Assembly: GCF_000025705.1 (NCBI RefSeq)
Contig: NC_013959.1
Span: 1,417,063-1,481,062 of the forward strand
From: Sideroxydans lithotrophicus ES-1
Lineage (GTDB): Bacteria > Pseudomonadota > Gammaproteobacteria > Burkholderiales > Gallionellaceae
DNA length: 64,000 bases
Direction: 5' to 3'
Made by a program: the position numbers and the translations under genes. Positions 18,157 to 64,000 of the stretch are shown piece by piece. The notes under the pieces are model-generated. The model had not been told where the DNA came from, did not search any database, and saw nothing but the letters and a program-made list of their open reading frames with translations. How positions within the stretch are numbered: the first letter of the stretch is position 1; each line of letters starts with the position of its first letter.

Positions 18157-19062
18157 ATGTCAACATTAGCAGCATCACAACCGCCAGTAGACAGGCGCAA
18201 GCAACAACGTACTTCCCCACCCAAAGATTATGGCTGGACACTATATATAATAGTGATCACCTTGTTGATGGCTGCGGGATTCTTTATCTCATATGACCAG
18301 CTATACAAGCCCGGCGACAATGTCGGTTACAACCTCGGGTTGGCTGGCGGGATAATGATGCTGACTCTGCTGATCTATCCCTTGCGCAAAAGGGTGGGCT
18401 TCATGCGGAACTGGAGCATCCTGCCAAAGTGGTTCAAATGGCATATGGCCTTCGGAATCCTTGGCCCGGCGCTCATCGTGTTCCATTCCACCTTTACTAT
18501 ACATTCGATCAATGCAGGCGTAGCGATGGCCTGCATGTTGCTGGTATCAGGGAGCGGAATCTTCGGGAGATTCTTCTACACCAAGATCCACAATGGACTT
18601 TACGGCAGGAAATCTTCGCTTGAGCAGATGCAGGCTAATTTGGAAAGCAAAGGTGATGTCAAATCCATACTGAACTTTGCCCCGGAGCTAGAGCAAAAGC
18701 TTTTGGATTTTCGCGATCAGGCAATGGCTTCCGCGAGACCTGGAAAGTTCGATCTACTGAATTTCATCAAATTGGGTATCCGGGCAAAATGGTATTCAAG
18801 GGTGTTTGTCAGAGAGTTGGAAGACGCAATGTATGCGGATGCCAATGCCAAGCAGTGGAACGAAGCGCAAATGAAGCGCTTGGACGAGCTCTTTTACCAG
18901 AACGAGAGGTTTATTCGGAACTATCTGCTGACTGTACGAGATCTCGCTCAATTTTCGACCTACGAAAAATTGTTTTCCCTGTGGCATATATTCCACGTAC
19001 CGCTGGTTTACATGCTGGTATTCAGCGCAATCTGGCATGTCATCGCTGTTCATAAATACTGA
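18157..19062 (+). CDS. Inner-membrane di-heme b-type cytochrome (predicted)
   Basis: A 301-residue membrane protein with about five hydrophobic helices (near 27-46, 57-76, 96-116, 119-140 and 278-298) and a basic cytoplasmic-type loop of about 130 residues. Histidines lie in two HX13H pairs: His96/His110 in the third helix and His280/His294 in the last. This is the classical spacing for two stacked b hemes shared by two helices. I infer a quinone-linked electron transfer subunit. Its stop overlaps the start of the 24-heme cytochrome (TGATG), so translation of the two is coupled. I do not recognise a named family. Confidence 0.7.
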   Translation: MSTLAASQPPVDRRKQQRTSPPKDYGWTLYIIVITLLMAAGFFISYDQLYKPGDNVGYNLGLAGGIMMLTLLIYPLRKRVGFMRNWSILPKWFKWHMAFGILGPALIVFHSTFTIHSINAGVAMACMLLVSGSGIFGRFFYTKIHNGLYGRKSSLEQMQANLESKGDVKSILNFAPELEQKLLDFRDQAMASARPGKFDLLNFIKLGIRAKWYSRVFVRELEDAMYADANAKQWNEAQMKRLDELFYQNERFIRNYLLTVRDLAQFSTYEKLFSLWHIFHVPLVYMLVFSAIWHVIAVHKY

Positions 19063-20858
19063 TGGATAACAATTTCTTCAAGTGGCTATCTTTCAGGACG
19101 TTCGCAATTGCCGTGGGCGTCCTCGTATTTTCCTTCCAGGCCCATGCAGATTCTGCAAGCGACCTGTTGATGCCTGGCCAATTGATCCAGGCGCATGACA
19201 AATACAAGAGCGATTGCGCTAACTGCCACAAGCCGTATGACAAGGCGGCACAATCCGGGCTGTGCAAGGACTGTCACAAGGAGATCGCGAAAGACATCGC
19301 CGGGAAACATGGTCTGCATGGCTTGATGAAGGAAGATAAACCTTGCAAGGAATGTCACACCGAACACAAAGGCAGGGATGCCCGGATCGCAAAATTGAAC
19401 ACCGTCAATTTCGACCATTCGACTACAGGATTCGAGTTGAAGGGGGCGCACTTGAGCAGCAAGGTTCTTTGCAAGGACTGTCACTCCCCACTGAAGAAAT
19501 ACCGCGAAGCGCCTGTCAAATGCATCGGATGTCATCAAAAAGCCGACAAGCACAAAGGTTCACTGGGACCGGACTGTGAGAACTGCCACGAAGAAAAAGA
19601 CTGGAAGACGACCCATTTCGACCATAGCAAAACTCACTTCCCATTGCTTGGAAAGCATATGGATGTGAAGTGCAAGGCTTGCCATATCAATGACAAATTC
19701 AAAGATACCCCGCGTCTGTGCAACGACTGCCATAAGAAGGACGATAAACATAAGGGCAATTTCGGACCGAAATGCGAGACTTGTCATGATGCAAAGAGCT
19801 GGAAAGAGATTCTCTTCGATCACGACAAGCAGACCAAATACCCGTTGCTAGGAAAACATCGTGAAACGAAGTGCGTGAGTTGCCATAAAGGGAATCTGTA
19901 CAAGGAGAAATTGAAGACAAACTGTTTCTCTTGCCACAAAAAAGATGATAAGCACAAAGGCAAGTTCGGTACGAAGTGCGAATCCTGCCACGTCGAGCGC
20001 AGCTGGAAGGAAATTCCATTCGATCATGACAGGAAAACCAAATTTCCCTTGCTTGGGAAACACAAGGACGTCAAATGCAACGCCTGTCACAAGGGCGATC
20101 TATATAAAGACAAACTGAAGATGGATTGCTTTTCGTGCCATAAAAAAGACGATAAGCATAAGGGCAGCTTTGGTCCGAAATGCGAAACTTGCCATATCGA
20201 AAAAAGCTGGAAAGAGATTGTCTTCGACCATGACAAGAAAACCAAATACCCGTTGCTGGGCAAACACCGGGATACAAAATGCGTCAGCTGTCACAAAGGT
20301 GACTTGTACAAGGACAAACTGAAGACCGATTGTTTCTCTTGTCACGAGAAGGATGACAAACACAAAGGCGAGGAGGGGAGGAAATGCGAATCCTGCCACC
20401 ATGAGGACTCGTGGAAAAGAGTCGAATTCGATCACAGGATCTCACGCTTCCAGCTGACGGGAAAACACGCGTTGGTAGAGTGCAAGAAATGCCATTTGAC
20501 TGTGGTCTTCAAAGAAGCGAAATCGGACTGCTGGTCTTGTCATGAGAAGCAGGACGTACATAAACGCACGCTTGGCACGGGATGCGAAACCTGCCACAAC
20601 ACCCGAGACTGGAAAGATTGGGATTTCGATCACGATAAAACCGGCTTCAAACTGGATGGGAAACACAGGAGTCTTAAGTGTATCGACTGCCATAATACCC
20701 CGGTTAGAACCAAGGTCGTGCTGGCAGCTACCTGTGTCAGCTGTCACGAAAAGGATGATAAGCATGATGGTGCATTTGGCATGCAGTGTGACCATTGCCA
20801 TATTGGATCAAATTGGAAAACCATCAAAGTAGGAGGGCAGCGGTGGATAAACTACTAG
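19062..20858 (+). CDS. 24-heme periplasmic c-type cytochrome of triheme modules
   Basis: 598 residues with a signal peptide (cleavage near QAHA, residue 29) and 24 CXXCH motifs. After an N-terminal three-heme segment there are seven repeats, typically 68 residues, each with FDH, GKH and DKH histidines plus three CXXCH sites, which gives enough histidines for bis-His ligation of all hemes. This is the plan of cytochrome c7 arrays. The protein is strikingly Lys-rich (DKHKG, KTKYPLLGKH). There is no lipobox or barrel, so it is expected in the periplasm, carrying electrons between the b cytochrome and the outer membrane. Confidence 0.92.
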   Translation: MDNNFFKWLSFRTFAIAVGVLVFSFQAHADSASDLLMPGQLIQAHDKYKSDCANCHKPYDKAAQSGLCKDCHKEIAKDIAGKHGLHGLMKEDKPCKECHTEHKGRDARIAKLNTVNFDHSTTGFELKGAHLSSKVLCKDCHSPLKKYREAPVKCIGCHQKADKHKGSLGPDCENCHEEKDWKTTHFDHSKTHFPLLGKHMDVKCKACHINDKFKDTPRLCNDCHKKDDKHKGNFGPKCETCHDAKSWKEILFDHDKQTKYPLLGKHRETKCVSCHKGNLYKEKLKTNCFSCHKKDDKHKGKFGTKCESCHVERSWKEIPFDHDRKTKFPLLGKHKDVKCNACHKGDLYKDKLKMDCFSCHKKDDKHKGSFGPKCETCHIEKSWKEIVFDHDKKTKYPLLGKHRDTKCVSCHKGDLYKDKLKTDCFSCHEKDDKHKGEEGRKCESCHHEDSWKRVEFDHRISRFQLTGKHALVECKKCHLTVVFKEAKSDCWSCHEKQDVHKRTLGTGCETCHNTRDWKDWDFDHDKTGFKLDGKHRSLKCIDCHNTPVRTKVVLAATCVSCHEKDDKHDGAFGMQCDHCHIGSNWKTIKVGGQRWINY

Positions 20859-21010
20859 CCCTCTATAAGCCGCTCATCCTTGTTTGCCACAACCGATGGG
20901 CGGTTTGAATGAAACATGGCAATACAGAATACAATCGTGAAAAGGACGTTAAGCAGTAGCTTGGCGATAACTCTCGATTAAAATAAAAGGCAGGACAGCG
21001 GGGTGTCTAT

Positions 21011-23869
21011 ATGAAATTGCCAATAGTGATTTATAGTAATTTCTTAAAGGCGGCGGCGATGTTGCTGCTACTGACAATCGGATTCTCTCCCTTTGCCCAA
21101 GCCGCTCCGGCGGCAAAAGCAAAAAATTCGTTTGACCATTCCAAAACGGGATTCATCCTCAAGGATGTTCACGCGACTCTGAAGTGCGAACAATGCCACG
21201 TCGATGGCATTTTCAAGAACACCCCGAAAGATTGTGCCGGCTGCCACTCTGCTGGAACGCGTGTCGCTGCCACCCCCAGGCCGATCAATCATGTGCCAAT
21301 TTCAAACATCAATAACAACGCTTGCGATACATGCCACACAAGCACCGCTAATTTCCTGGTAAAGAGCTACCAACATGTGGGCATTACGGGCAACTGCTCG
21401 ACTTGTCACAACGGCCAGTCACTTGGAGTGGTGAGCAAGCCTGCAACACACTTCCCGACTATGGCGCCTTGTGAATATTGCCACAAGAACACCAGCACTT
21501 TCCTCAGCTACCAGGTCGATCATCTGGCAAATGGATTTATCGGCAACTGTTATACATGTCATGGTGGGCCGCAAGCAGGCTCGGCCACTTATCCCAACGT
21601 CGTGGCTTATCCCTCGAATCACATGACGATAGCTGCGGGAAGTGATTGCAACGCCTGCCATCAGAATTACGTTACATTCCTGGGGGCGACTTTTGGGCAT
21701 ACCCCCGGTTCTGTATGTACTACCTGTCATTTGCCGGGGCAGTTGTCTGGAGTAGTTTCCATTAATTACTCAACTCACATTCCTTTGCCGGCGGGTTCTA
21801 CCTGCACAAGTTGCCATGCTGATCCAGTGACCCAACCAACGCCTACGTTCCTTGGCGCAGCGTTCCATACCAGCACCTATGGAAGCACGGCCGCCGCAGC
21901 GGGTACCTGTACGACTTGCCATAGTGGCAGCTATATTTCACAAAATGCCCAAACCAAAGGCGCAACCCACATTCCGACTTCTGCAGATTGCAGCACATGC
22001 CACACCGATGCGGCAGGAACGCCAGCCAATACGACATCAAGTTTCACAACTTTTCTCGGTGCGAAATTCCACCTGACACCGTCCGGCAATCCCCCTACCG
22101 GCTTGTGCTCGACCTGCCATAACGGTGGATATGCATCGGAAAACGCGCTGGGCAAGAACACTGGACACTTGGTGACGACAGCAGATTGCGTGATGTGTCA
22201 CACCGCAACGAATACGATCAGTTACACCACATTCCTGGGGGCCAGTTTTGATCACAATGTGACCTATAACAATGCTTTCCCGGCAGCGGCACCTGCCTCG
22301 CCGCTTTGCGGTTCATGCCATAACGGAGCCACTGCGACGGGCAAGAAGACAACCCATGTGCCGACGACAGGGGATTGCATCACCTGTCATACCAACGCCA
22401 CTACAGGTTGTCCGAATTGCGTTTCTTTTTACGGTGTGCAATACGATCACACCAATGCGGCAGCAGGCGTCGCGGCTTATACGACTTTCCCGGTGGGAGC
22501 TCCCGCTTCGCCGCTATGCAGTTCGTGCCATAACGGTACCACCGCGCTTGGCATGAATGCAGGGCATATTCCGGTAAACGGAGCGGATTGCATCACTTGC
22601 CACACGCCCGCCAATACTGGTTGTGGCACAACTGGACTTTGCTCCACGTTCCTGGGTGCAACTTTCAGCCATGCAGCTGTTGCAGCCGGGTCTTGCGGGG
22701 CTTGCCACCAGAGTCAATATCCGGGTGTGGTGTCGATCAATCCGGCAATTCACATTCCGCAGTCTTCGGGCAATGCATGCGATAAGTGCCATACCAATGC
22801 AATAACCGGGTTGCCAGGCACCGCTACTCCGACATTCCTGAATGTGGTGTTCCATCAGAATGCGTTGGGCAATCCACCCGCGGGCTTATGCTCGACCTGT
22901 CATTCCGGTGCCTATGTCACAACACAGGCGACTCCCGCCTATTCAAAAGCGTACACGGGCAGCTTCAATCACGTTGCGACAACAGCAGATTGCGTGGTAT
23001 GCCACACCGCAGCAAATACCTCGTCTTACACCACGTTCCTTGGAGCCGGTTTTACCCACTCTCCAGGTACGTACGCAACTTGGCCACCTACCATGCCTCC
23101 GTCACCAACCTGTTCGTCTTGTCATAATGGGGTGACTGCAACCGGCACAAGTTCCGCACCTACGCCACACCCTGCGATCGGTGCTTCGGACTGCATGACT
23201 TGCCATACGACATCTGTACTGGTGGGGTGCCCGTCCTGTTCATCGTTCGGGATGGCTGCGGGGGTAGTGCACAATACCGCACCGTACAATACGGCAGGCT
23301 CCTGCAGCACCTGTCACAATGGGGCACAGGCGACAGGGCTCTCCCTCGGGCATATTCCTGTCGGGGCGGCAAGTTGTGACCAATGCCACTCCGTATATGA
23401 TGGATCAGGGTCGATCAACTTCAGTACGGCAGCCATTTCCTCGATAACAGTGAATGGGGTTTCAAGATACGGAATGAAACATTCCGCAGTCACCGGGCGA
23501 TGCGACAGCTGCCATAACGGTTCCTATATAGGACAAGGCATATTCGGTGCATTGGCCAAAGTCTCCAATCACATTCCGACAGCCATCATCAACACCGCGG
23601 CCAACACCGACTGTACCAGTTGCCATTCCACGACCATCACAATTGCATCAGGAGCGGGTGACTGGAAAACTGGCGAGCATATGAATCATAATAATGCACA
23701 GGGGGGAGCTCCTAATTACTGTGTGACCTGCCACCTGAAAGGTGTTACCTATTTGTCGACGGCCCAGAAGATCAGCCACAATGGCGCCAGTACCTCCAAA
23801 GACTGCTCATCTTCAAGTTGCCATAAACCACTTGGTAGAAAAGGTACCGCATATTCTTCCTGGAACTAA
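21011..23869 (+). CDS. 28-heme (possibly 29) c-type cytochrome, secreted
   Basis: 952 residues with signal peptide (cleavage near FAQA, about residue 31), 28 CXXCH motifs, and one CX4CH (Cys932-His938) near the C-terminus that could bind one more heme. Two CXXC pairs without histidine (CPNC, CPSC) look like lost sites or disulfides. Between hemes a loose repeat recurs: C.TCHNG, H(I/V)PT..DC.TCH, TTFLGA.F.H. It is rich in Ala, Thr, Ser and Gly and poor in Lys, unlike the preceding cytochrome. I infer an outer-membrane or cell-surface partner of the following barrel. The 152-base gap before it shows no clear promoter. Confidence 0.92.
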   Translation: MKLPIVIYSNFLKAAAMLLLLTIGFSPFAQAAPAAKAKNSFDHSKTGFILKDVHATLKCEQCHVDGIFKNTPKDCAGCHSAGTRVAATPRPINHVPISNINNNACDTCHTSTANFLVKSYQHVGITGNCSTCHNGQSLGVVSKPATHFPTMAPCEYCHKNTSTFLSYQVDHLANGFIGNCYTCHGGPQAGSATYPNVVAYPSNHMTIAAGSDCNACHQNYVTFLGATFGHTPGSVCTTCHLPGQLSGVVSINYSTHIPLPAGSTCTSCHADPVTQPTPTFLGAAFHTSTYGSTAAAAGTCTTCHSGSYISQNAQTKGATHIPTSADCSTCHTDAAGTPANTTSSFTTFLGAKFHLTPSGNPPTGLCSTCHNGGYASENALGKNTGHLVTTADCVMCHTATNTISYTTFLGASFDHNVTYNNAFPAAAPASPLCGSCHNGATATGKKTTHVPTTGDCITCHTNATTGCPNCVSFYGVQYDHTNAAAGVAAYTTFPVGAPASPLCSSCHNGTTALGMNAGHIPVNGADCITCHTPANTGCGTTGLCSTFLGATFSHAAVAAGSCGACHQSQYPGVVSINPAIHIPQSSGNACDKCHTNAITGLPGTATPTFLNVVFHQNALGNPPAGLCSTCHSGAYVTTQATPAYSKAYTGSFNHVATTADCVVCHTAANTSSYTTFLGAGFTHSPGTYATWPPTMPPSPTCSSCHNGVTATGTSSAPTPHPAIGASDCMTCHTTSVLVGCPSCSSFGMAAGVVHNTAPYNTAGSCSTCHNGAQATGLSLGHIPVGAASCDQCHSVYDGSGSINFSTAAISSITVNGVSRYGMKHSAVTGRCDSCHNGSYIGQGIFGALAKVSNHIPTAIINTAANTDCTSCHSTTITIASGAGDWKTGEHMNHNNAQGGAPNYCVTCHLKGVTYLSTAQKISHNGASTSKDCSSSSCHKPLGRKGTAYSSWN

Positions 23870-23895
23870 TTCGTTAGAATGAATGTTCATCATAA

Positions 23896-23920
23896 AAGCC
23901 TACCTCTTGGAGGTAGGCTT
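23896..23920. repeat. Perfect 11-bp hairpin between cytochrome and porin genes
   Basis: aagcctacctc and gaggtaggctt form an 11-bp perfect stem with a TTG loop, 26 bases after the cytochrome stop and 31 before the porin start. On the plus strand no T-run follows. On the minus strand four T residues follow. It could be an attenuator, a processing or stability element, or a terminator for opposite-strand transcription. Confidence 0.75.
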
Positions 23921-23951
23921 GGTTACCTCTTCAAAAATCGAGCATGAGAAT

Positions 23952-26471
23952 ATGAGTTCAACCAAATGCTATCGCTTGATTTTTTCACTCATTGTTTTAC
24001 TACAATTGGTATTCTTATCGTCCAGTGCATTCGCAGACGAACTGGTCGACGATATCGTCTTGCATCCAGAGTCTAATGGGGATGTAGTCGCCGTCATGAA
24101 GTTTGCTTATCCGATTCAGTATCTGAGACATTTCCCTCGGGGTAAATCTCCTTATACTTCGATTTACTTCAATATCCTTGGAAGTGTTCCGCCAGACATA
24201 TGGCAAGATTATGAGTCACACAGGACTCCTCCTTCTAATTTGGTCCAGGAGATCACTGTAACAACACGTGATCGCGGTACCGGACCCAAGGTTCAGATCA
24301 AGTTCTATCGTCCTGCCGAATTCGCCGTAACCATGGGCAGCAACAACCAGGTCCTGTTGATTCGAATCAGACCGGAGATAACCCAACAAAAGAATGAAAG
24401 CAAAACTGTAACAGGGCAACCGGCAAATATGATTGCGCCGGTCTTGGCTCCCCCGATTACTGCCTTGCCAACGATTCCCAAGACTCCTGCTGCATCTACA
24501 CCCACTGTTGCAGTAACACCAGCACCAGCACCAGCACCAGCACCAGCACCAGCACCAGCTTCCGCTTCAATCGCGATGACTTCAGTTGCGCCTGCAGGCG
24601 AGGTAACCAAGCCGCATGTCATGCTGGCACCGACCAAGGCAAAACGTATCCGTATTCCTCTCGGCGGAAAAGACGGGCTTCCTCCTTTCCCGGAAATTGA
24701 GCAGTTCGCACAGCCGGCTGGCGCAGCTCCATCTGACAAAGCTGCCGCACTGGCCGCACAGGTCGTGAAAGCAAACAATGAGGCGGCTGTGTTGATGGAA
24801 AATGGCGGAAATGCGCTGCTGACAGGCCAATCATTTGCCGCCATTGAATCGTTCAATAAGGTACTCACGCTACCGCCCAACACTTACACGGAAGATGCCC
24901 AGCTGTGGATAGGGATAGCAAAGGAAAGGACTGGCCTTCTGGACAAAGCCATCCTTGAGTACCAGTCGTATTTGAGGCTCTATCCGAAGGGTAAATCGGA
25001 AGCATGGGTCAAGAATCGGCTTGCCATACTCAAGAAGTCCGTTCCTGCGGTATTTGCAAATCTTGAGAGGCCGGTGGTGGCGCCAACCCCGGCCCGAATA
25101 CAAAATACCGAGATGCAATATTCCGAGTTTGGCAGCCTGTCCATGTATTTCTACACGGGGGCCACTCAGACAAATACCACTGCGACTCCGGGCACCGTGC
25201 AGACGCCGACATCCTTTTCAACTACCGATCAGAAATCCCTGATCACCAATGTCAGCGCCACTGCCCGTGCATACAACAACGAATATGACAATCGTCTGGT
25301 ATTCCAGGATTTCTATTCGGCCAACTTTCTCCAGAACCAGCAGAACAGCAACAGGTTAGGAGCGGCCTATTACGAAGTGAAAGACCGCATCGTCGATTAT
25401 TCGTTCAAGATCGGGCGACAGTCCGGCTTTGGTGGCGGTGTGATGGGGCGTTTCGACGGCATCGCAGCGGGATATGGATTCGCCCAGGATTGGCGCGCGA
25501 ACATAGTGACCGGACAGTTGTCCGATGCCACCATCGATGCAAAACCAAAGTTTGCTGGCGTCAGCCTCGACTTCGGCGTCAGAAAACCGCTCGGTGGCTC
25601 GGTATATTTCATCAACCAGACAGTCAGCGGTATCACCGATAGAAGAGCCGCGGGCGGCAACCTGCGATACTTTGACCAACGCTTCACCCTTATGTCCATG
25701 CTGGATTACGACATCCAGTTCAAGGCACTGAACATGGTCACTGTGCAGGGGACCATGAATGGGGGCGGAACAGGGAACGACTACAACTTCCTGATCGATC
25801 GGCGCAGGAGCCCGATCCTGGACATCAGGAACGCCATTAATGGCACAGCCATTCCGTTGTCTGTCCTCATACAGAATGGTTGGACCACGAGCGATTTGGT
25901 ATTGCTGGCCAATCAGCGTACGACGATGGCAAGCATGGCCTCGGTAGGCATGACCAACCACCTTGATGAGAAGTGGAGCATCGGCACGGATTTTTCCATT
26001 GCAAAGACCGATGGTCTTGCCGCCAGTGGCGGTGTGCCAGATGCGTTCGGGGTATGTACAGCTACGGAAGGATGTGTACCGGCTACGCCTTCAACGGGCA
26101 ACACCTGGACGATCTCCGAAAGGGCAACCGGTCTGGGTGTCATACAGCCGCATGATGTGACCAACTTCAGCCTGAGTTATACCAAGGGCCAATTGTCGCA
26201 AGCTGAAGCATTCCAATTCAGCAACCATTCCGACCTCAAAGAGAAATGGACGCTGGATTCAACATGCGCACTCAGCTTCCAGTCGGATAGCACGGGCGGC
26301 AAGGCGAACGCAATCTCCCCCACGGCAAGATTGTCGTACCAGGTGAGAAACAATCTGTCTACTGACGGCCAATTGGGATTGAGCTGGACCAAGTCTTCAT
26401 CCAGCTCATTGCAGACTTCAACGACGTCGCTTAGGGAGTTCGTTTCATTCGGCTTCCGTCTGAATTTCTGA
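23952..26471 (+). CDS. Outer-membrane porin with periplasmic TPR domain
   Basis: About 839 residues. Signal peptide (MSSTKCYRLIFSLIVLLQ..., cleavage near AFA), an N-terminal beta domain of about 110 residues, a Pro-Ala linker (about 188-205), a TPR pair (about 275-370: GNALLTGQSFAAIESFNKVL, DAQLWIGIAKERTG, AILEYQSYLRLYP) and a C-terminal beta-barrel of about 450 residues ending in phenylalanine (GFRLNF), the usual barrel signal. This matches the porin role in porin-cytochrome conduits, with TPRs likely docking periplasmic partners. An earlier in-frame ATG at 23883 would read through the hairpin. I prefer 23952 because the signal peptide starts there. Confidence 0.85.
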   Translation: MSSTKCYRLIFSLIVLLQLVFLSSSAFADELVDDIVLHPESNGDVVAVMKFAYPIQYLRHFPRGKSPYTSIYFNILGSVPPDIWQDYESHRTPPSNLVQEITVTTRDRGTGPKVQIKFYRPAEFAVTMGSNNQVLLIRIRPEITQQKNESKTVTGQPANMIAPVLAPPITALPTIPKTPAASTPTVAVTPAPAPAPAPAPAPASASIAMTSVAPAGEVTKPHVMLAPTKAKRIRIPLGGKDGLPPFPEIEQFAQPAGAAPSDKAAALAAQVVKANNEAAVLMENGGNALLTGQSFAAIESFNKVLTLPPNTYTEDAQLWIGIAKERTGLLDKAILEYQSYLRLYPKGKSEAWVKNRLAILKKSVPAVFANLERPVVAPTPARIQNTEMQYSEFGSLSMYFYTGATQTNTTATPGTVQTPTSFSTTDQKSLITNVSATARAYNNEYDNRLVFQDFYSANFLQNQQNSNRLGAAYYEVKDRIVDYSFKIGRQSGFGGGVMGRFDGIAAGYGFAQDWRANIVTGQLSDATIDAKPKFAGVSLDFGVRKPLGGSVYFINQTVSGITDRRAAGGNLRYFDQRFTLMSMLDYDIQFKALNMVTVQGTMNGGGTGNDYNFLIDRRRSPILDIRNAINGTAIPLSVLIQNGWTTSDLVLLANQRTTMASMASVGMTNHLDEKWSIGTDFSIAKTDGLAASGGVPDAFGVCTATEGCVPATPSTGNTWTISERATGLGVIQPHDVTNFSLSYTKGQLSQAEAFQFSNHSDLKEKWTLDSTCALSFQSDSTGGKANAISPTARLSYQVRNNLSTDGQLGLSWTKSSSSSLQTSTTSLREFVSFGFRLNF

Positions 26472-49866: not shown

Positions 49867-52854
49867 ATGTCTGGCATGCATCCATACGCAGTCTATCGTT
49901 GGACGGATGTCCCCAGACTGTCCTGGCTGGCGCTGCTGTATGCGCTGCTTATCCTGCTCGTACTTTCCAATTTGACCACCGAAGCAAAGATATCCCCTGT
50001 CTGGCTGCCAAGCGGAGTTGGGCTCGCAGCACTGATTGCTGGCGGCAGAAAATATTGGCCGGGCATCTTTATCGGAGCGCTGGCGGCTTATCTGGTGATA
50101 TGGCGTTCTGTCCCACTCTCGTTCTTTATCGCTTCAAGCAATGTACTTGAGGCGCTGACAGCCGTCTGGCTCCTTTCCCTGATCAAGACTTTCGATTCCG
50201 GATTCAAACAGCCGCGAGATTATTTATGGTTGATCTTTGCAGGCTCCATCGCTGCCATGTTGGCGGCGACGATAGGGGTGGTCACGCTGGTGTTTGCGAA
50301 TGTCCTGCCGATTGCGGATATTTTCCATGCCTGGGGGTATTGGGTGATGGGCAATCTGCTCGGGATCGCACTGGGCACCCCGTTCCTGCTGATCTGGCGC
50401 AAGCAGCCGAGCAGGTGGATCAATAAAGAGCAGAGCAGATGGCTGGAGTTGTCGCTATTCGCAGTGCTGGCATTCCTGACCAGCCTGGTTGCTTTCCATG
50501 GCTGGACGTCGTCATCGTTTGAAGATATCCCCTTGGGATACTTGATGTACCTGTTCGTCACTTGGGCGGCGATCCGTCTGGGAAGACATGGAGTGACGCT
50601 GGTGCTGCTCTTGACCGCGGTACAGGGGGTGCTGGGTGCGCTCGACGGAGTGGGTTTTTTCGCCGGTGACATCCATAGCGGACTGGCGAATTTCTGGCTA
50701 TACATGATCAGCCTGAGCCTGGTCGGTGTCGTGCTGGAGTCGACCATCCGGCAGCATCGTCGCGATGGAGATGCCTTGCGCGAGAGTGAATCCAGACTGC
50801 ATGCGATACTGGACCATGCCCCGGTCGGCATCTGGCTGGTGGGCAAGGATGGCCGCTATCAGTTTGTGAACAAGCGGTTCTGCGATGCGACCGGCATTCC
50901 GGAAAGCGCGTTTCTCGCCACTACGCATCTTCCCGATCTTATGGGTGAGCAGATCGCGGCAGCTTGCCTTGCTTCCGATCAGGCCTGCCTGTCGCAGGAT
51001 GAGCCCTATGTTTCAGTCGAAACGCTTCCTTTAGTCGACGGAAAGTTGCACCAGCTGGAGGTCACCAAGGCACAGTTGCGCGACAGCAATGGCGAAGTGA
51101 TCGGTGCCATCGGGATTTCCGTGGATGTCACCGGGCGCAACCAGGCCGAAGAGGCATTGCGCGAGAGCGAGGCGCGCTGGAGCTTTGCGCTGGAGGGCGG
51201 TGGCGACTGCGTCTGGGACTGGAACGTGTCGAACAACGAGGTTTCGCTGTCGAAAGGCGGCAAGGGCATGTTCGGTTTTGCCGACGATGAGATCGGCAAC
51301 GACATGTCGGAATGGAACGCCCGCGTCCACCCGGAAGATATCTCGCGGCTGCTGTCCAGGATCAGCGATTTCTTCCACTCGAAAGCAGACAGGTTTTCCG
51401 CCGAGTATCGGGTGCGCTGCAAGGATGACAGCTGGAAGTGGATTTTGACGCGCGGCATGGTGGCGCACCGTTCTACCGATGGCAGGGTGACGCGCATGAT
51501 CGGCACACACACCGACCTTTCCGAACGCAAGCTGGCCGAGGAAACCATACGGCGTCAGGCTAATTACGATTCGCTTACCCAGTTGCCCAACCGGCGCCTG
51601 TTCCGCGACCGGCTGGAGCAGACGATCCGGCTGGCAAAGCGCGATCAATCTTCGTTCGCACTCATGCTCATTGACCTCGACCACTTCAAGGAGGTCAACG
51701 ACACCATGGGGCACGATGCCGGGGATTTCCTGCTGGTGGATGCTGCCCAACGCATTCAACATTGCGTGCGCGAATCCGATACGGTTGCACGCATGGGAGG
51801 GGACGAGTTCGTGGTCATCCTGCCCGATGTCAACGACCCGGACAACATTGAACGCATCGCCCAGAACATCATCACCAAACTGGCTGCGCCATTCGTATTG
51901 GGCGAAGAGAAGGCCTTCATCTCGGCCAGCATCGGGATCACTTTGTATCCCTCTGACGCAGACAGCATGGAGACCTTGCTGAAGAATGCCGACCAGGCGA
52001 TGTATGTAGCCAAGCACCTTGGACGTAACCGCATGAGCTACTTCACGCCCGTATTGCAGGAGAATGCACAAAAACGGATGCGGCTGGTCAACGATCTGCG
52101 TGATGCTTTGTCTTCCAACCAGTTACGTGTGTTTTACCAGCCTATCGTCGAACTGGCGACCGGGGATATCCATAAAGCCGAAGCGCTGATCCGCTGGCTG
52201 CATCCTACGCGTGGCATGGTCAGCCCTTCCGAGTTCATCCCGCTGGCGGAAGAGACCGGCATGATCATCGAGATCGGCGACTGGGTGTTGCGGCAAGCGA
52301 TGCACCAGGTGAAGCGCCTGCAGGCGAGCCACCATAAAGGATTCCAGATCAGCGTCAACAAGTCTCCGGTACAGTTCCACAACGACAATCCGCTGAAGGC
52401 TGCGGAATGGCTTGGCGAACTGGAACAGAACGGATTGCTGGCGAGCAGTCTGGTGGTCGAGATCACCGAAGGCGTGTTGCTGGATGACGATGGCAATGTC
52501 AAGGACAGGTTGCTGGCCTCGCGCGATGCGGGCATCCAGGTGGCGATAGACGACTTTGGAACAGGATATTCCTCGCTGGCATACCTGAAAAAATTCGACA
52601 TCGATTACCTGAAGATCGACCAGACCTTCGTCAACAACCTGGGTAACCAGTCCGACGATATGGCCCTGTGCGAGGCGATCATCGTCATGGCGCACAAGTT
52701 GGGCCTGAAGGTCATCGCAGAAGGAGTCGAGACGGAGCAGCAGCGCGATCTCCTGAAGCAGGCGGGCTGCGATTATGCTCAAGGCTTCCTGTTTTCAAAG
52801 GCCATTCCGGCAGAGGAGCTGGAAGATTTGTTGCGTCAAAACGCGCAGCGGTAA
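49867..52854 (+). CDS. MASE1-PAS-PAS-GGDEF-EAL membrane c-di-GMP protein
   Basis: 995 residues. The N-terminal MASE1 sensor (about 15-290) has about eight hydrophobic helices (VWLPSGVGLAALIAGGRKYWPGI is the typical start). Two PAS domains follow (about 305-420 and 430-550), then GGDEF (about 560-720; GGDEF intact at about 644, I-site RESD) and EAL (about 740-995; [15 protein letters not shown] intact). Third GGDEF/EAL protein in the window. It is 34 bases after guaA with no promoter seen. Confidence 0.9.
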   Translation: MSGMHPYAVYRWTDVPRLSWLALLYALLILLVLSNLTTEAKISPVWLPSGVGLAALIAGGRKYWPGIFIGALAAYLVIWRSVPLSFFIASSNVLEALTAVWLLSLIKTFDSGFKQPRDYLWLIFAGSIAAMLAATIGVVTLVFANVLPIADIFHAWGYWVMGNLLGIALGTPFLLIWRKQPSRWINKEQSRWLELSLFAVLAFLTSLVAFHGWTSSSFEDIPLGYLMYLFVTWAAIRLGRHGVTLVLLLTAVQGVLGALDGVGFFAGDIHSGLANFWLYMISLSLVGVVLESTIRQHRRDGDALRESESRLHAILDHAPVGIWLVGKDGRYQFVNKRFCDATGIPESAFLATTHLPDLMGEQIAAACLASDQACLSQDEPYVSVETLPLVDGKLHQLEVTKAQLRDSNGEVIGAIGISVDVTGRNQAEEALRESEARWSFALEGGGDCVWDWNVSNNEVSLSKGGKGMFGFADDEIGNDMSEWNARVHPEDISRLLSRISDFFHSKADRFSAEYRVRCKDDSWKWILTRGMVAHRSTDGRVTRMIGTHTDLSERKLAEETIRRQANYDSLTQLPNRRLFRDRLEQTIRLAKRDQSSFALMLIDLDHFKEVNDTMGHDAGDFLLVDAAQRIQHCVRESDTVARMGGDEFVVILPDVNDPDNIERIAQNIITKLAAPFVLGEEKAFISASIGITLYPSDADSMETLLKNADQAMYVAKHLGRNRMSYFTPVLQENAQKRMRLVNDLRDALSSNQLRVFYQPIVELATGDIHKAEALIRWLHPTRGMVSPSEFIPLAEETGMIIEIGDWVLRQAMHQVKRLQASHHKGFQISVNKSPVQFHNDNPLKAAEWLGELEQNGLLASSLVVEITEGVLLDDDGNVKDRLLASRDAGIQVAIDDFGTGYSSLAYLKKFDIDYLKIDQTFVNNLGNQSDDMALCEAIIVMAHKLGLKVIAEGVETEQQRDLLKQAGCDYAQGFLFSKAIPAEELEDLLRQNAQR

Positions 52855-54368: not shown

Positions 54369-57300
54369 ATGATGACCGTGCGCAACTATTTCCTGCCGAC
54401 CGTCACGTTGATATTGGGACTTTTGTCGAATTTATCTGCGTTCGCGGCAGCTCCGCCCACCGGCGTGCATGTGGGTTTCACGGCGGCCACCGGCAGTTCG
54501 GACTTCACGGGTGCGACAGGCGGGTGTACCGGTTGTCACACTGCACCTACTGCGGCGCTCGCCGCCTCGGTCTACCAGACATACGCCGCCGCAGCCACCA
54601 GCAACACCACCTACAGAACGTACAGCGCCTCGTCTACCCTGATCGGCACGAATGCCAACACTTTCGGCACGCCAGGCGGCATGCCTGCGGCGAATATCAC
54701 TTTCGCCGCCAATGCCACGAACTCGGGCAACATGTCGGCATATTTCGCCTCGTTCCAGACGCCCGTGCTGGCGGCTCCCGCAGCCATCACCCTCACGCAC
54801 GGGCAAGTCTATAGCCCCGGCTACCAGATCGTTGCCGCCGCTGGGCAGGATTTTCTGGTGGACACCACCACCTACACCGGTACCAGCTTACCGCCGGGCA
54901 TCACTGTCAACCTGAATAGCGGCGTGGTGTCTGGTACGGCGCCCGCACCCGCGACGCCAACCGTTTACAACGCGACGATCACCGCGACCAACGCTTCGGC
55001 CAGCCCTACCGGCGGCAGCGCCTCCTTCACCATAGGCGTGAATGCGGGCCAGACCATCGCAGGCACGGCGCCGGCCTCGGTCGCCATGGGCACTAGCGGC
55101 AGTTTCGGCGTCACCGGCGGCGGCTCAGGAAATGCGATCACCGTGACCAATACTTCCGCTGCGGGCATCTGCAATGTCGCCATTTCCGTGAATACGGGCG
55201 CATCGGCAACAGTCACCATCACGCCCGTGGGCGTGGGCGCCTGCACCTACACGCTTAACCAGGCGGGCACCACGGTGGCCGCGGGCGCAGCCGGCTGGGA
55301 TGCCGCAACCGCAGCACCTTACAGCACCACCATCGCGCAAGGTACACAGACAGTCACGACGTGGACTGCGCCGGCCTTGCCGTTCTATGCCAACAATGCA
55401 ACCGCTACCGTAGGCGCCACGCTGAATTCAGGCCTGACTGCCACGCTGTCTTCGCAGACGACTTCCGTGTGCACGGTGGCGGGCACGACCGTCACCGGCA
55501 TCGCTGCGGGAACCTGCACCATAACGGCAGCCCAGGCGGGCAATACCAACTGGCTGACGCTCACGGCCGGTGGTCAAACCACCTCGTTTGCCGTGAGCCT
55601 TGCTTCGCAGACCATAACAATGCCCGTGCCCTCTGTGGTGGTGGGGGGGGGCGCCGTTGCGATCTCGCCCACGGCTCCTTCCGGTCTTGCAGTCACTTTG
55701 TCCAATACCACCACATCGCAATGTACGTTGGCGGGATCGCCTGGCGCCTACACGCTCACCGGTCTGCACGCAGGCACCAACAATTGCGTATTGAACGCGA
55801 CCGTGGCTGGCAATACGCAATATGCTGCCGTCACCACGCCACAGGCACTGAATGTCTCGATCGGGCTGGGTACACAAACCATCTCGGCAGGCACCGTGCC
55901 AACAGTGGCCACCGGCGGTACAGGACAATTGAACCCGACTTCCAATACGGCGAACCCCATTTTGTATTCCACCAGCACCGGATCTGTTTGCTCGGTTTCA
56001 GCCTCGGGCTTGGTTACTGCCGCCGCATCAACGGGCGGGCAGACCTGCACCATACTGCTCGACCAGAATGCGACGACCGACTACAACGCAGCAACACAAG
56101 TGGCGGTCAACATCACAGTTGGTTTGTATGGACAGACCATCACGCTTGGTACGGTTACCGCAGTTTACTACCAGCCTGCGGGGACAACTTACGGTACCGG
56201 GACCATTTCAGCCACGGCGAGCAATTCGGCCACACCTGCTACAGCATCTCCCTCCGTGACCTTCACATCGAACACGCCTGCTACATGTTCCGTGGGCCTG
56301 ACGACTGGAGTCATTACCGGACTGGCTGGAGGAACGAATAACTGTACCATCGTCGGCAACGTGGCAGGCGTGACTGGTGTGTTGAATCCGGCAACGCTCA
56401 CTTTCCCCTCGATCTCCATATTGCAGACAGGACAGACGTTGGGTTTCGGCGCTGCGCCATCCATTAGCGTTGGTACCACTGCAAACGCCAGCGCTACTTC
56501 TACTTCTGCTGCGAACACGGCTACAGGATTGGCTGTGACCTACGGCACGAGCAGTGCCAGCACGATCTGCACAGTGAACGCATCTTCAGGTGCCGTCACC
56601 GGCACTGGCGTCGGAACCTGCGTGGTCACTGCCGATCAGGCGGGCAACGCGAATTATTCTGCTGCCCCCCGGGTGACCCAGAACGTGTCCATCACCATCG
56701 GTAGCCAGACTCTGGTATGGGGCGCTGCACCGACCGTGAGTTACCAGGGAACGGGTTCGGTCAGCGCGACTTCGCAAGTCACCTCCAACTCCACTCCGAC
56801 GCTGTTGCCGGTCACATACTCGTCGCTAACGCCGACGATCTGTTCCGTGGTGAGCAACACCGGCGTGATTACCGGCCTAGCCGGTGGCACCTGCACCATT
56901 GCGGCCAACCAGTCTGGTACAGCCAATTACAGCCCGGCTACGCAAGTCACCCAATCATTTGCCATCAATCCGATCGCGCAGAGCATCAACATGACGGCGG
57001 TGACAGGTTTGGTGGTGGGAGGCACAGTTACTTTAAGTTCGACAACAACGTCAGGACTTGCAGTTACCTATAGTTCCGCAACGACCGGTATTTGTACTGT
57101 TAGCGGCAATGTCGTCACCGGTGTGGCGGTGGGTACTTGTACCATCAATGCCAACCAGGCAGGTGACACCAATTACCAGGCTGCTACGCAGGCATCCCAG
57201 AACGTTACCGTTGGACAAGGTAACCAGACAATCACTTTCGGCACTGCGCCAGCGGTGAATGTGGGGGGCACAGGTACCGTGAGCGCCACTGCATCGTCTG

Positions 57301-59870
57301 GCCTGGCTGTAACTTTCACCAGCCTGACCTCAAGCGTATGCACGGTGACAGCAGGTACGACTGTTAATGGCGTGACCACAGGTACCTGTACCATTGCAGC
57401 GAACCAGGCTGGCAATGCAAACTGGACTACGGCGGCACAAGTCACGCAGACCTTCTCGATCACTTACCTGCCACCCACAGCTGGCGCGGCAAGCCTGACG
57501 GCCCAACTCAACACGGCCGCAACACTTGATCTGGCACCGTTCATTACAGGCATAGGGGTCACCGGTGTCAGCATCTCGGTGCAGCCTGCACATGGCACGA
57601 TAAGCGTGTCCGGGACCAGGGTGACCTACACACCCAACTCGAATTATTTCGGTTCGGACAGCTTCAAATATCTTGCTTACAACGCTGGAGGAGTATCGCC
57701 AGCCGCCGCCGCAGTGAGTGTGACGGTTTCCGGTCGTCCCGATCCAACCAAGGATGCACACGTGACCGGACTGGTCGATATCCAGACGGCCACCGTCAAA
57801 CGTTTTGGCATGGCACAAGTGTTCAATTTCCAGCAACGCCTGGAATCGCGCCATCATGCGGCTTACTATCCGATGGCCAGTGCATCTCCTGCAGGCACGG
57901 GAAGCCCAATAGGCCCTGCAGATTCCGGACCTCCTCCTGCGCCCGCCGGGGGGGCGGCTCCCGGTCAGACGCAAAACTATTTCAACAGTTGGCAACCGGG
58001 CACCGTACTGGCTTATGCGAACGACCCTCAGACACTGATGCTTGCGCCGGATCGGCTGAACAGCGGAGGAAACAATTCCAGCCCGCTGTTCGGTACATTG
58101 ATGAGTGCTGTCACGGGAGCAATAACGACTTCGAGTTTGAATCTGGGAGCGATCTCCAATGCGGTCGGCTCGGCGCAGGACGAATCGTTCAGCAGGCTTG
58201 ATATCTGGGCTGCAGGCAACCTGCGTTTCGGAACGACGACACAAGACGGCGTGAATACGCAATTCAGCACGGACGGCATCAGCGTCGGTGTCGACAAGCG
58301 GATGGACCGGAAGCTGACCGTCGGCATGGGCATGGGCTATGCGCGCGACAACAGCAGCATCGGCACGGACGGTACGAACAGCACTTCCAGCGGCAACAGC
58401 GTTGCCGGTTATGCCAGCTACCAGATGGATTCGGGTAACTTCCTCGATGGCTTGCTGGGATACGGCAAGGTGAATTTCAACACCAATCGCTATGTGGCTG
58501 CGGTGAACGATTTTGCCCGGGCCTCGCGCACCGGCGACCAGATATTCGGTTCTGTATCGTTCGGTTACGAGTACCACAAGGAAGGGTTGTTGTGGTCGCC
58601 GTATGGCCGCTTCGATTTCGATTTCGACCGGCTGAATGCGGGAACGGAAAGCGGGGCGGGCATCAATGCGCTGAGCTATGCCAGCCAGAACATGCGCACC
58701 TCGCATCTCACCTTCGGCATGCGCGGCGAGTCTGTCCATCAGACCACTTTCGGCGTGGTACAGCCACATGCTCGCTTCGAATATCAGCACGGCCTGGAAA
58801 CGAATGGACAGACTTCCGTTTCCTATGCCGATCTGCTGGGAGTGCAGTACTCGATCGCTGGAACTTCGCAAAATACCAATGCCGTCGTCCTTGGCCTGGG
58901 CAGTGATTTCCTGCTGAGCGACAAGTTGAAGCTTTCTTTCGACTACCAGCGCTTGCGTTCGAGCGGATTCGAGAACTATCAGTCGATCAACTTCCGTCTC
59001 ACCAAAACGCTCAGCGGCAAAAACGATCTTGCCGAACTGCTGGATGAAAGTTACAACGCATCGCTCGAACATCCTTCCGGACTGCTCGTTGCAGCCGGAT
59101 TTGCTTACGACGACAACGTCAGTCGCGCCAGCGAGGTGCTGGACAAGCTATCGGATACCATCTACAGCCTGACAGTGAGCAAAGGCCTGGTGTTCGCCGT
59201 CTCGCGGCACACTAGGCTGACGGTGAGCGGATTCATGGATGTCGAGAAATTCCGCAATTACGCAGGACTCGGACATGTCTCGGGCGGCATGCAGGGCGAA
59301 TACATGTATCGCAGCTCGGGCGAGTTCGGCGCACCCACCTACGGCATCTTCGCACGCTTCGAGGCCGATCAGTATGAATCCACCTTGCGCGACGGGACGC
59401 ACAGCTCCGCGGGCCTGACCCTGCGCAAGCCGCTAACCGACCGCATCGATCTCTTCGCCTCGGTGGCTGAAAATGCGCATACAGGCAAGAGCGATGTGTT
59501 CAATACGCGGGATGTATCGGGACGCATGAATTTCGACTATGCACTGGCTGTCGGGCAGACGATCTACCTGACCGGAGAGTACCGAAAGGGCGACATCATC
59601 TCTTCCGGGCTGCCCTCGCTGAAGATACTGGATATCGCAACCGTCTTCGTACGCGACGATGCATTTGCCTCGGCGGGATTCTTTGATTACCGGATGAAAG
59701 GGCGAACCGTGCTGTTCACCCTGGGCTATAACATCGGCTTCGGCAACAAGGATTCCGCGGATATCTCCTGGCGTCGAGTGCAATCGACGCCGGACATGAC
59801 GCCGGCTTATGCGTCGCCGCTCAACTATACAGTCAACCAGCTCGCCATCGTTTATCTGATGGCATTCTAG
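54369..59870 (+). CDS. Heme-bearing autotransporter with Ig-like repeats
   Basis: 1833 residues. Signal peptide (cleavage near AFA), a cytochrome c-like domain with CTGCH at 53-57 and MPAANITF/GNMSAYFASF as possible ligand regions, an He_PIG-like Ig domain (about 150-225), nine tandem Ig-like repeats of 75-105 residues (about 228-1028), each with a conserved cysteine pair (C.V...G.C.I.A.Q.GN), a cadherin-like domain (about 1030-1125; VTYTPNSNYFGSDSFKY), a helical linker (about 1131-1163), an autotransporter barrel (about 1275-1548) and a further barrel-like region (about 1565-1833) ending in Phe. I chose ATG 54369; 54372 is also possible. Confidence 0.85.
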   Translation: MMTVRNYFLPTVTLILGLLSNLSAFAAAPPTGVHVGFTAATGSSDFTGATGGCTGCHTAPTAALAASVYQTYAAAATSNTTYRTYSASSTLIGTNANTFGTPGGMPAANITFAANATNSGNMSAYFASFQTPVLAAPAAITLTHGQVYSPGYQIVAAAGQDFLVDTTTYTGTSLPPGITVNLNSGVVSGTAPAPATPTVYNATITATNASASPTGGSASFTIGVNAGQTIAGTAPASVAMGTSGSFGVTGGGSGNAITVTNTSAAGICNVAISVNTGASATVTITPVGVGACTYTLNQAGTTVAAGAAGWDAATAAPYSTTIAQGTQTVTTWTAPALPFYANNATATVGATLNSGLTATLSSQTTSVCTVAGTTVTGIAAGTCTITAAQAGNTNWLTLTAGGQTTSFAVSLASQTITMPVPSVVVGGGAVAISPTAPSGLAVTLSNTTTSQCTLAGSPGAYTLTGLHAGTNNCVLNATVAGNTQYAAVTTPQALNVSIGLGTQTISAGTVPTVATGGTGQLNPTSNTANPILYSTSTGSVCSVSASGLVTAAASTGGQTCTILLDQNATTDYNAATQVAVNITVGLYGQTITLGTVTAVYYQPAGTTYGTGTISATASNSATPATASPSVTFTSNTPATCSVGLTTGVITGLAGGTNNCTIVGNVAGVTGVLNPATLTFPSISILQTGQTLGFGAAPSISVGTTANASATSTSAANTATGLAVTYGTSSASTICTVNASSGAVTGTGVGTCVVTADQAGNANYSAAPRVTQNVSITIGSQTLVWGAAPTVSYQGTGSVSATSQVTSNSTPTLLPVTYSSLTPTICSVVSNTGVITGLAGGTCTIAANQSGTANYSPATQVTQSFAINPIAQSINMTAVTGLVVGGTVTLSSTTTSGLAVTYSSATTGICTVSGNVVTGVAVGTCTINANQAGDTNYQAATQASQNVTVGQGNQTITFGTAPAVNVGGTGTVSATASSGLAVTFTSLTSSVCTVTAGTTVNGVTTGTCTIAANQAGNANWTTAAQVTQTFSITYLPPTAGAASLTAQLNTAATLDLAPFITGIGVTGVSISVQPAHGTISVSGTRVTYTPNSNYFGSDSFKYLAYNAGGVSPAAAAVSVTVSGRPDPTKDAHVTGLVDIQTATVKRFGMAQVFNFQQRLESRHHAAYYPMASASPAGTGSPIGPADSGPPPAPAGGAAPGQTQNYFNSWQPGTVLAYANDPQTLMLAPDRLNSGGNNSSPLFGTLMSAVTGAITTSSLNLGAISNAVGSAQDESFSRLDIWAAGNLRFGTTTQDGVNTQFSTDGISVGVDKRMDRKLTVGMGMGYARDNSSIGTDGTNSTSSGNSVAGYASYQMDSGNFLDGLLGYGKVNFNTNRYVAAVNDFARASRTGDQIFGSVSFGYEYHKEGLLWSPYGRFDFDFDRLNAGTESGAGINALSYASQNMRTSHLTFGMRGESVHQTTFGVVQPHARFEYQHGLETNGQTSVSYADLLGVQYSIAGTSQNTNAVVLGLGSDFLLSDKLKLSFDYQRLRSSGFENYQSINFRLTKTLSGKNDLAELLDESYNASLEHPSGLLVAAGFAYDDNVSRASEVLDKLSDTIYSLTVSKGLVFAVSRHTRLTVSGFMDVEKFRNYAGLGHVSGGMQGEYMYRSSGEFGAPTYGIFARFEADQYESTLRDGTHSSAGLTLRKPLTDRIDLFASVAENAHTGKSDVFNTRDVSGRMNFDYALAVGQTIYLTGEYRKGDIISSGLPSLKILDIATVFVRDDAFASAGFFDYRMKGRTVLFTLGYNIGFGNKDSADISWRRVQSTPDMTPAYASPLNYTVNQLAIVYLMAF

Positions 59871-62838: not shown

Positions 62839-64000
62839 ATGTCTGCACTGAAAAACATCCGCTTGGTTTCTTCCCGTGGCGAAGAAAATCCCGTCGAGTC
62901 GGAAGCGATACTCGAATCGCGCGGGCGCATCGAAGCAGAGATCGAAGCGCAGCTGGCGGTGCAGGCTCGTGCCCGTGCCGAAGCGCATGCGCGGGCCATA
63001 TTGCAGGGCAAGGTGCGCCAGGAAAGCGAACTGACCGAACAGATCGAAGCTCGTACCCGTGCCGAATCCGAATTGGCCGGTGAAGTGCAAGCGCGCCACG
63101 ATCACGAACGCGAGCTGGCGGCAGTGTTGCATACCAAGAAGAAGGCCGAAGAACGTCTTACTGACGCCGTGCGCGAAAAACTGGAAGCAGAGCGACAGGC
63201 CCAAGCCGAGCTGGAACAGAAATTGGCTGCTGAAAAGCGCCTTCGTAACGAACTGGAGCGGCAGGCGCAACTGGATCGCGAGGCGGCATTGCTTGCCCAG
63301 GAAAAGGCCCGCACCGAAGAAACGTTGACGCAATCCGTGCAGAACAAGCTCAAGGCCGAAAAAGAGGCGCTGGCGATGGTCAATGCCAAGCTTGCCGCCG
63401 AGAACTCGGCGCAGGATGCGATGAATGCGCGCGTCCGCGCCGAAATGCTGGCACTGGCCGAGACTCAGGCCAGGGTGGCGGCGGAACTGGATGCCGAGCG
63501 TGCCGCGATGGCAAGGGCAGATGAAGAGCGCAAGGCCGCCGAAGAAGTCGAGCTGCGCATCAAGATCGAACAACAAGCCCAGGCCGAAGCATCGGCACGG
63601 GTGCAAGCCGAATTGAAAGCTGCCGAGATCGCCCAAAAGGCCGTCGAGGCAGAACAGGAAGAAAGACTTGCCGCAGAAAGGAAACTGCAAGCCGAACAGG
63701 AGATGCTGAAGCTGCTGGAATCTCGCGTGGAAGCTGAACAGCTGGCAATCAGGGAACGTGAAGAGGCGAACGCCGTATTGAAGCAGATCGAGCTGGAAGC
63801 GCGCGATCTGTTGGCGGTAGAGGAACAAGCCAAGCGTGCCGCCGAGGTCAAGCTGCAGGCGGAGCGGGAATTGACGGTGATGGCACAGCACCGTGCCGAA
63901 GTCGATATGCGCGCTTCGCAAGCCATCGAGTTGCAGGTTCATGCCGAAGCGGAAGCGATAGAGCAGGCCAACCGACGCTACGAGATGGCGGAATGCGCCA
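62839..64000 (+). CDS. Long Ala/Glu-rich coiled-coil protein (partial)
   Basis: Open from ATG 62839 (GAGGTGGA upstream) to the right edge: 387 codons, no stop. After a short start (MSALKNIRLVSSRGEENP) nearly the whole sequence is charged coiled coil (QARARAEAHARA, KAEERLTDAVREKLEAE, heptads of A/E/R/K/Q). There is no signal peptide or catalytic motif. Repetitive coiled coils of this kind occur in structural or scaffold proteins. The gap of 174 bases before it contains no obvious promoter or terminator. Confidence 0.75.
   Translation, partial: MSALKNIRLVSSRGEENPVESEAILESRGRIEAEIEAQLAVQARARAEAHARAILQGKVRQESELTEQIEARTRAESELAGEVQARHDHERELAAVLHTKKKAEERLTDAVREKLEAERQAQAELEQKLAAEKRLRNELERQAQLDREAALLAQEKARTEETLTQSVQNKLKAEKEALAMVNAKLAAENSAQDAMNARVRAEMLALAETQARVAAELDAERAAMARADEERKAAEEVELRIKIEQQAQAEASARVQAELKAAEIAQKAVEAEQEERLAAERKLQAEQEMLKLLESRVEAEQLAIREREEANAVLKQIELEARDLLAVEEQAKRAAEVKLQAERELTVMAQHRAEVDMRASQAIELQVHAEAEAIEQANRRYEMAECA

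Follow-up and report, generated by a model that had tools for sequence, protein, structure and literature searches.

A predicted cytochrome-tipped autotransporter with a second outer-membrane barrel in Sideroxydans lithotrophicus ES-1

We analysed a 64,000 nt stretch of the Sideroxydans lithotrophicus ES-1 genome (contig NC_013959.1, positions 1,417,063 to 1,481,062 of the forward strand; hereafter the window) that carries P0001, an open frame of 1833 aa at 54369..59870 (+; coordinates are those of the window) in which a predicted heme domain, a stalk of immunoglobulin (Ig)-like domains, an autotransporter barrel and a second barrel, here called B2, are joined in one chain. The most far-reaching reading, which we rate as somewhat less likely than not, is that P0001 represents a family of type V-secreted cytochromes: a covalently heme-loaded class I cytochrome c would be moved through the translocator and held tens of nm outside the cell on its Ig stalk, as the terminal of an electron-exchange module of two barrels and a triheme lipoprotein, with heme-ended stalks taking two forms, one carried by the barrel protein and the other by the lipoprotein. 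That P0001 and the lipoprotein P0003, here together with the cytochrome P0002, form an outer-membrane redox module passing electrons between the cell envelope and the exterior, with heme at the distal end of the stalk, is the explanation we favour, and we rate it as an even bet. The computational support covers the cytochrome domain, the stalk, the two barrels and the conserved gene set; from these we infer that the heme is located outside the cell.

A first-pass annotation, made from the sequence alone, had described a protein at this position with a CXXCH domain directly after the signal peptide, about 1000 residues of Ig repeats and a C-terminal barrel, and its coordinates and residue numbers were borne out. 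The signal peptide (residues 1-26, 54369..54446, ending ...LSAFA/AAPP as judged by eye) is followed by the putative class I monoheme cytochrome c domain (approximately residues 27-130, 54447..54758), defined from an alignment (A2) and profile matches. This domain carries the heme-attachment motif CTGCH at residues 53-57 (Cys53, Cys56 and His57; 54525..54539) and, 48 residues after His57, the candidate distal heme ligand Met105 within GGMP (54681..54683). The Ig-like region spans approximately residues 132-1118, some 990 residues in about 11 domains: a He_PIG domain (residues 132-224, 54762..55040, E 8.7e-9, also found by fold search), nine repeats of about 90 aa with one Cys pair each, spaced 15-24 residues (55050..57470; PF22359, Big-like, E 5e-5, below its cut-off), and a final Big_9 domain (residues 1035-1118, 57471..57722, E 7.8e-8). 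A helix modelled at residues 1130-1160 (57756..57848), within the range aligned to in-pore helices of known autotransporters, precedes a 12-strand autotransporter beta-domain (residues 1279-1527, 58203..58949) that is supported by both the model and Pfam (Autotransporter, PF03797, E 1.3e-39). The C-terminal barrel was thus a genuine type Va barrel, but it is not the last one: B2, which had gone unnoticed, follows at residues ~1572-1832 (59082..59864) with 12 strands in a KdgM/NanC-like arrangement. All of these features are on the + strand.

The N-terminal domain is predicted to be, most likely, a class I monoheme cytochrome c. Counting each genome once, we collected 20 proteins in which B2 is fused to an autotransporter (the window protein, 15 from the P0003-based loci described below, L052, L075, L054 and L047), of which 16 had a readable N-terminus, those of L077, L080, L097 and L047 being cut or unclear. 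One CXXCH close to the N-terminus (open-frame positions 38-102) was present in 13 of the 16, and in all 13 a Met lies 25-48 residues past the heme His, a range set post hoc; in most of them a pattern such as DIAAYI comes after the Met, as in class I cytochromes. An N-terminal CXXCH with a later Met is the arrangement of class I c-type cytochromes, and binding of the iron by this Met is a candidate assignment. Of the 13 heme-bearing N-termini, alignment A2 comprised 12 (L052 was omitted); C, C, H and two Ala were its only invariant positions, and identity to the ES-1 domain was 16-28%. As these rows were chosen for having CXXCH, the invariance of C, C and H is no proof by itself, and the weight is carried by the shared position, the Met and independent profile matches. 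Pfam Cytochrom_C and Cytochrome_CBB3 were each matched by five of the 12 A2 members (E up to 1; best 9.7e-6 and 1.3e-5, respectively), and the A2 profile matched the cytochrome bc1 c subunit (E 1.2e-5) and cytochrome c6 (E 5.8e-4) in the PDB over approximately positions 3-90. The whole of P0001 contains 20 Cys and 18 His, giving a chance expectation for CXXCH of ~1e-4 per 100 positions. On this sequence evidence the CXXCH of P0001 is judged not to be a chance occurrence.

The survey of CXXCH in other autotransporters that had been proposed in the first-pass annotation was partly run and showed that the motif tracks the B2 fusion. An order-level search gave 28 autotransporter-barrel matches outside the window, from which 18 regions were retrieved and 10 weaker matches left out. 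B2 was present in six of these regions and absent from 12 (L051, L053 and L055-L064, with L063 and L064 from one genome), and CXXCH occurred in none of these 12 relatives anywhere in the open frame. Nine of the 12 had readable N-termini (L057 and L062 were cut, L055 was unclear), so that the comparison of 13/16 fused against 0/9 B2-less proteins gave a Fisher p of ~1e-4 with kinship ignored. The autotransporter domain as such was found in 116 of 299 genomes of the phylum.

P0001 lies within what is likely, by prediction, a P0002-P0001-P0003 operon. P0002 (53096..54367, +) is a secreted c-type cytochrome that combines a single heme motif, CQHCH, with two fibronectin III domains (fn3 E 1.2e-17; the Cytochrome_CBB3 match, E 0.0024, falls short of its cut-off), and it ends 1 nt from the start of P0001. 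Matches to P0002 were found in 14 of 120 genomes, mainly to the fn3 part and near full-length in G060 only, and no relation between the heme domains of P0002 and P0001 was detected by hhalign (probability 3.6). P0003 (59879..61888, +) is a lipoprotein (lipobox Cys30) with three CXXCH motifs at residues 217, 367 and 561 and a PKD/Ig-like domain. Neither the P0002-P0001 nor the P0001-P0003 junction has a terminator-like site; a terminator-like hairpin stands at the end of P0003 (61879..61894, +), a weak call given nine such sites in the region against 8.0 expected from shuffles. Beyond it is P0004 (61927..62664, +), an exported FecR-domain protein (E 3.2e-5, barely over the cut-off) with a twin-arginine-like leader recognised by eye.

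To follow this gene set across genomes, a P0003-family profile built from an alignment of 10 sequences (A1) was scanned over genome contigs and yielded 36 loci; since the loci were found through P0003, they do not measure how often B2 occurs without it. Nearly all host titles were Betaproteobacteria, the others being one Rhodospirillales, one Muproteobacteria and one Proteobacteria. B2 was found upstream of P0003 in 31 of the 36 loci, 15 times fused to an autotransporter and 16 times alone; four of the five loci without it (L090, L102, L108 and L111) are cut by the contig start, and the fifth, L087, has 1.5 kb upstream with no B2 frame. Most P0003 homologues carry three CXXCH (two in L077, L080 and L095, one in L087 and four in L103). 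Genes appear to be broken in frame in L077 and L110, the lipoprotein gene of the latter (L110:2091-4120) being matched in three overlapping frames, as if frame-broken or misassembled. In three loci with B2 alone (L071, L072 and L103) the lipoprotein is 1055-1074 aa rather than the usual ~650-700, and consists in part of PKD/Ig-type repeats, which Pfam identified as PKD in L072 and L103, that end in a fourth CXXCH. A heme-ended Ig-type stalk is thus predicted to sit on either partner, the barrel protein or the lipoprotein, although the lipoprotein form may be a single event, as the three loci are adjacent in the B2 tree.

A FecR-domain gene was near the module in all 36 loci, which favours a different role, that of a sensor: oxygen, nitric oxide or redox state would be detected by the heme domain, and the signal relayed by the FecR-domain protein together with nearby cyclic-nucleotide or cyclic-di-GMP genes. 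Genes of the latter kinds do occur: a CHASE2-cyclase-type gene near the FecR gene in four of 36 loci (L105:4134-6359, L080, L109 and L110; domains confirmed in L105), a GGDEF-type gene of about 400 aa near the module in five of 36 (L092, L093, L098, L106 and L079) and, in the window, a GGDEF/EAL-like gene (by eye) at 49867-52854, directly upstream of the operon. Such neighbours are confined to a minority of loci, FecR was the sole domain that Pfam found in P0004, and most P0003 homologues add three or four hemes of their own, which points to electron flow, so that we consider signalling improbable.

The separate occurrence of B2 suggests how P0001 arose. Its C-terminal 419 residues matched 14 of 149 genomes (ES-1 itself, which is included among the 14, and relatives); in 10 of these the match was confined to the B2 part, in open frames of 308-412 aa, while G060 matched over the full query and G093 and G096 over the autotransporter part alone. 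The standalone B2 protein of L006 carries a signal peptide of its own, and its gene stops 8 nt short of a P0003 homologue. As B2 is a separate gene elsewhere, the ES-1 protein is a fusion of an autotransporter with an otherwise standalone barrel. On a B2 tree of 41 sequences, in which bootstrap values were not yet stable and L074, L083, L054, L075 and L104 had long branches, the fused and alone forms required seven changes, at least three of them forced by well-supported branches, and this indicates repeated gain or loss of the autotransporter part. ES-1 B2 had no Pfam match over the cut-off. A Slam-like (SlipAM, PF04575) role as a lipoprotein translocon was considered for B2 and dropped. Weak SlipAM Pfam matches were seen in two of the 32 rows of the B2 alignment A3, one of them L099, and hhalign gave 61-95% for B2 against SlipAM, with controls of 0.2-12% for the autotransporter barrel against SlipAM and 0.3-2.4% for B2 against BBP2_2. 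However, BBP2_2 against SlipAM was also high at 90-94% (the BBP2_2 alignment included wrongly chosen frames), so the B2 signal is not specific.

Several observations weigh against a cytochrome-tipped, electron-exchanging stalk, beginning with the heme domain itself. Homologues lacking CXXCH, which the first-pass annotation had named as evidence against a heme domain, do exist, as the motif is absent from three of the 16 readable fused proteins (L082, 838 aa; L075, 1207 aa; L054, 804 aa) and present in the other 13. The record of L082, whose fused protein is short and without a heme domain, is titled as a Bordetella parapertussis metagenome-assembled genome (MAG) and may be a mislabelled environmental bin. 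Queried alone, the ES-1 domain had no cytochrome match in Pfam. A structure prediction of the N-terminal region, another of the earlier proposals, placed helices on either side of CXXCH and at 91-102 with modest confidence (block predicted local distance difference test, pLDDT, 38-77), but the heme-domain model had a low mean pLDDT of 60.5 and no cytochrome was among the 50 Foldseek matches listed, Ig and cadherin domains dominating the matches listed for the N-terminal model (Foldseek, VIA). A sequence search at E 0.001 with the ES-1 domain alone likewise yielded no homologue from 148 other genomes. These negative searches are what might be expected if CXXCH were no heme site at all, being a chance motif or a structural Cys pair; we regard this as very improbable, given that the motif and downstream Met recur in 13 of 16 proteins at such low identity and that cytochrome families and solved cytochromes are matched by other A2 members and by the A2 profile. 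The association of the parts is also loose: L069 and L070 (B2 and a FecR gene) and L054 (a fused gene and a FecR gene) have no P0003 in the retrieved stretch, so the link between B2 and P0003 is not strict, and the absence of CXXCH from 3/16 fused proteins, taken with the lack of a stalk on B2 in 16/31 loci, makes the heme tip an accessory. The hosts include Paucimonas, Paraburkholderia and Herminiimonas, which are not known to us as iron oxidizers, and this argues against a role restricted to iron oxidation.

The remaining difficulties concern export. The covalent heme of c-type cytochromes is added in the periplasm, and export of type Va passengers runs from the C- to the N-terminus. In the mechanism we favour, heme would be attached to the cytochrome domain in the periplasm, the passenger would be exported C-to-N with the cytochrome crossing last and coming to rest at the far end of the stalk, perhaps 40 nm from the cell, and B2 would work together with P0003, with electrons moving through hemes at the cell surface, where the cytochrome and P0003 would jointly exchange them. 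We know of no folded cytochrome that crosses an autotransporter pore, which counts against this sequence of events, as do the 18 additional Cys of the ES-1 stalk in nine pairs 15-24 residues apart. Type 5 passengers are, according to a review of type 5 secretion, generally cysteine-poor, with Cys a few residues apart in small disulfide loops (PMC8151025). Past residue 130, the other 12 heme-bearing proteins contain 0-4 Cys, compared with the nine pairs in the ES-1 stalk.

The need for a folded heme domain to pass the pore, together with the wide Cys pairs, leaves a substantial share to the main rival, in which export is incomplete and the heme domain is arrested in the periplasm; we consider it unlikely, though the most serious of the alternatives. 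Heme attachment before export and the position of the cytochrome as the last domain to cross are both compatible with arrest, the Cys pairs suggest that some parts of the passenger may fold in the periplasm, and the published Cyc2 model (PMC8406198) locates the cytochrome at the periplasmic face. The modelled barrel, on the other hand, is filled by a helix as in finished autotransporters and would have little room for a second chain, and a translocator with a helix-filled pore argues, as far as the model goes, for completed passenger export; nor can pore arrest account for a stalk borne on the lipoprotein. In a more extreme version the entire passenger remains periplasmic, serving as a redox spacer, with the autotransporter barrel as a mere anchor. 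It would remove the problem of exporting a heme domain and leaves disulfides free to form, but the translocator, helix included, matches exporting autotransporters, 11 Ig-like domains would extend to about 40 nm and exceed the usual depth of the periplasm, and the passenger length varies from ~625 to 1553 residues across the heme-bearing proteins, unlike a spacer for a fixed gap, and we think it quite improbable. The first-pass annotation had left the choice between translocation and periplasmic retention of the heme domain open, and its interpretation as a whole is partly supported. We continue to prefer, tentatively, completed export with the heme at the outer tip.

Other genes in and around the window include further cytochromes. 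A PCC3-type cluster at 18157-26471, ~27 kb upstream of the module, matches Slit_1446-1449, reported as the PCC3 cluster of S. lithotrophicus ES-1 in PMC8788666; the open frames at 19062-20858 and 21011-23869 contain 24 and 28 CXXCH, matching the counts for Slit_1447 and Slit_1448. In the Gallionella MAG locus L101, PCC3-like genes with 21 and 11 CXXCH (L101:3889-6560) lie ~2.5 kb upstream of B2 and P0003. Downstream of P0004, an Ala/Glu-rich, coiled-coil-like open frame (62839-64000) runs off the window and is 60% identical to the gene following the FecR gene in L102, a Sideroxydans MAG.

If the favoured explanation is true, iron-oxidizing and other Betaproteobacteria possess an undescribed outer-membrane redox module, and S. 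lithotrophicus ES-1 is already in use for studies of extracellular electron uptake. The module also bears on the limits of type V secretion, namely whether a folded, heme-loaded domain can cross an autotransporter, and the double-barrel chain of translocator and second barrel is unusual by itself. The same arrangement of heme tip, Ig stalk and two barrels, beside a multiheme lipoprotein, is seen in other bacteria, and it may represent a hitherto undescribed means of electron handling at the cell surface.

Among the matches listed, no cytochrome-bearing autotransporter was found in the open-licence literature, and an account of Pelobacter carbinolicus autotransporters names no cytochrome passenger in the part considered (PMC3543383). 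Like the type Va autotransporters EstA and AaaA, P0001 has a 12-strand beta-domain, an in-pore helix, a signal peptide and a passenger before the barrel; residues 96-126 of the model are helical and fall inside the range aligned with AaaA, EstA, NalP and EspP. It differs from them in its N-terminal cytochrome c, its Ig stalk and the second barrel after the translocator, so that the translocator barrel does not form the C-terminal end. P0001 therefore has a type Va translocator without being an ordinary member of the class.

The resemblance to Cyc2 drawn in the first-pass annotation holds insofar as a single chain combines an outer-membrane barrel with one CXXCH that follows the signal peptide. 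The Cyc2 motifs AXPXFAR[Q/K][T/Y] and PXL, as given in PMC8406198, are both missing: P0001 reads TGSSDFTGATGGCTGCH in place of the first, before CXXCH, and has no PXL after it. Cyc2 has one 16-strand porin directly after the cytochrome, whereas P0001 has ~990 residues of Ig domains and then two 12-strand barrels. Three genes with the Cyc2 motif, named Cyc2-like on that basis, are clustered at ~264-269 kb of the single-contig, 3,003,656-bp ES-1 genome, and the best BLAST match of P0001 to their proteins had an E of 0.49. With the motifs absent and the barrels different, membership of P0001 in Cyc2 was rejected. In contrast to 12-strand porins of the KdgM/NanC type, B2 is fused to or stands beside cytochromes. 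The module shares with MtrCAB, MtoAB and PCC3 the pairing of an outer-membrane barrel gene with one or more cytochrome genes, but is set apart from them by the 12 strands of B2, which would be too small to sheathe a multiheme wire, and by a partner, P0003, with three widely spaced CXXCH motifs.
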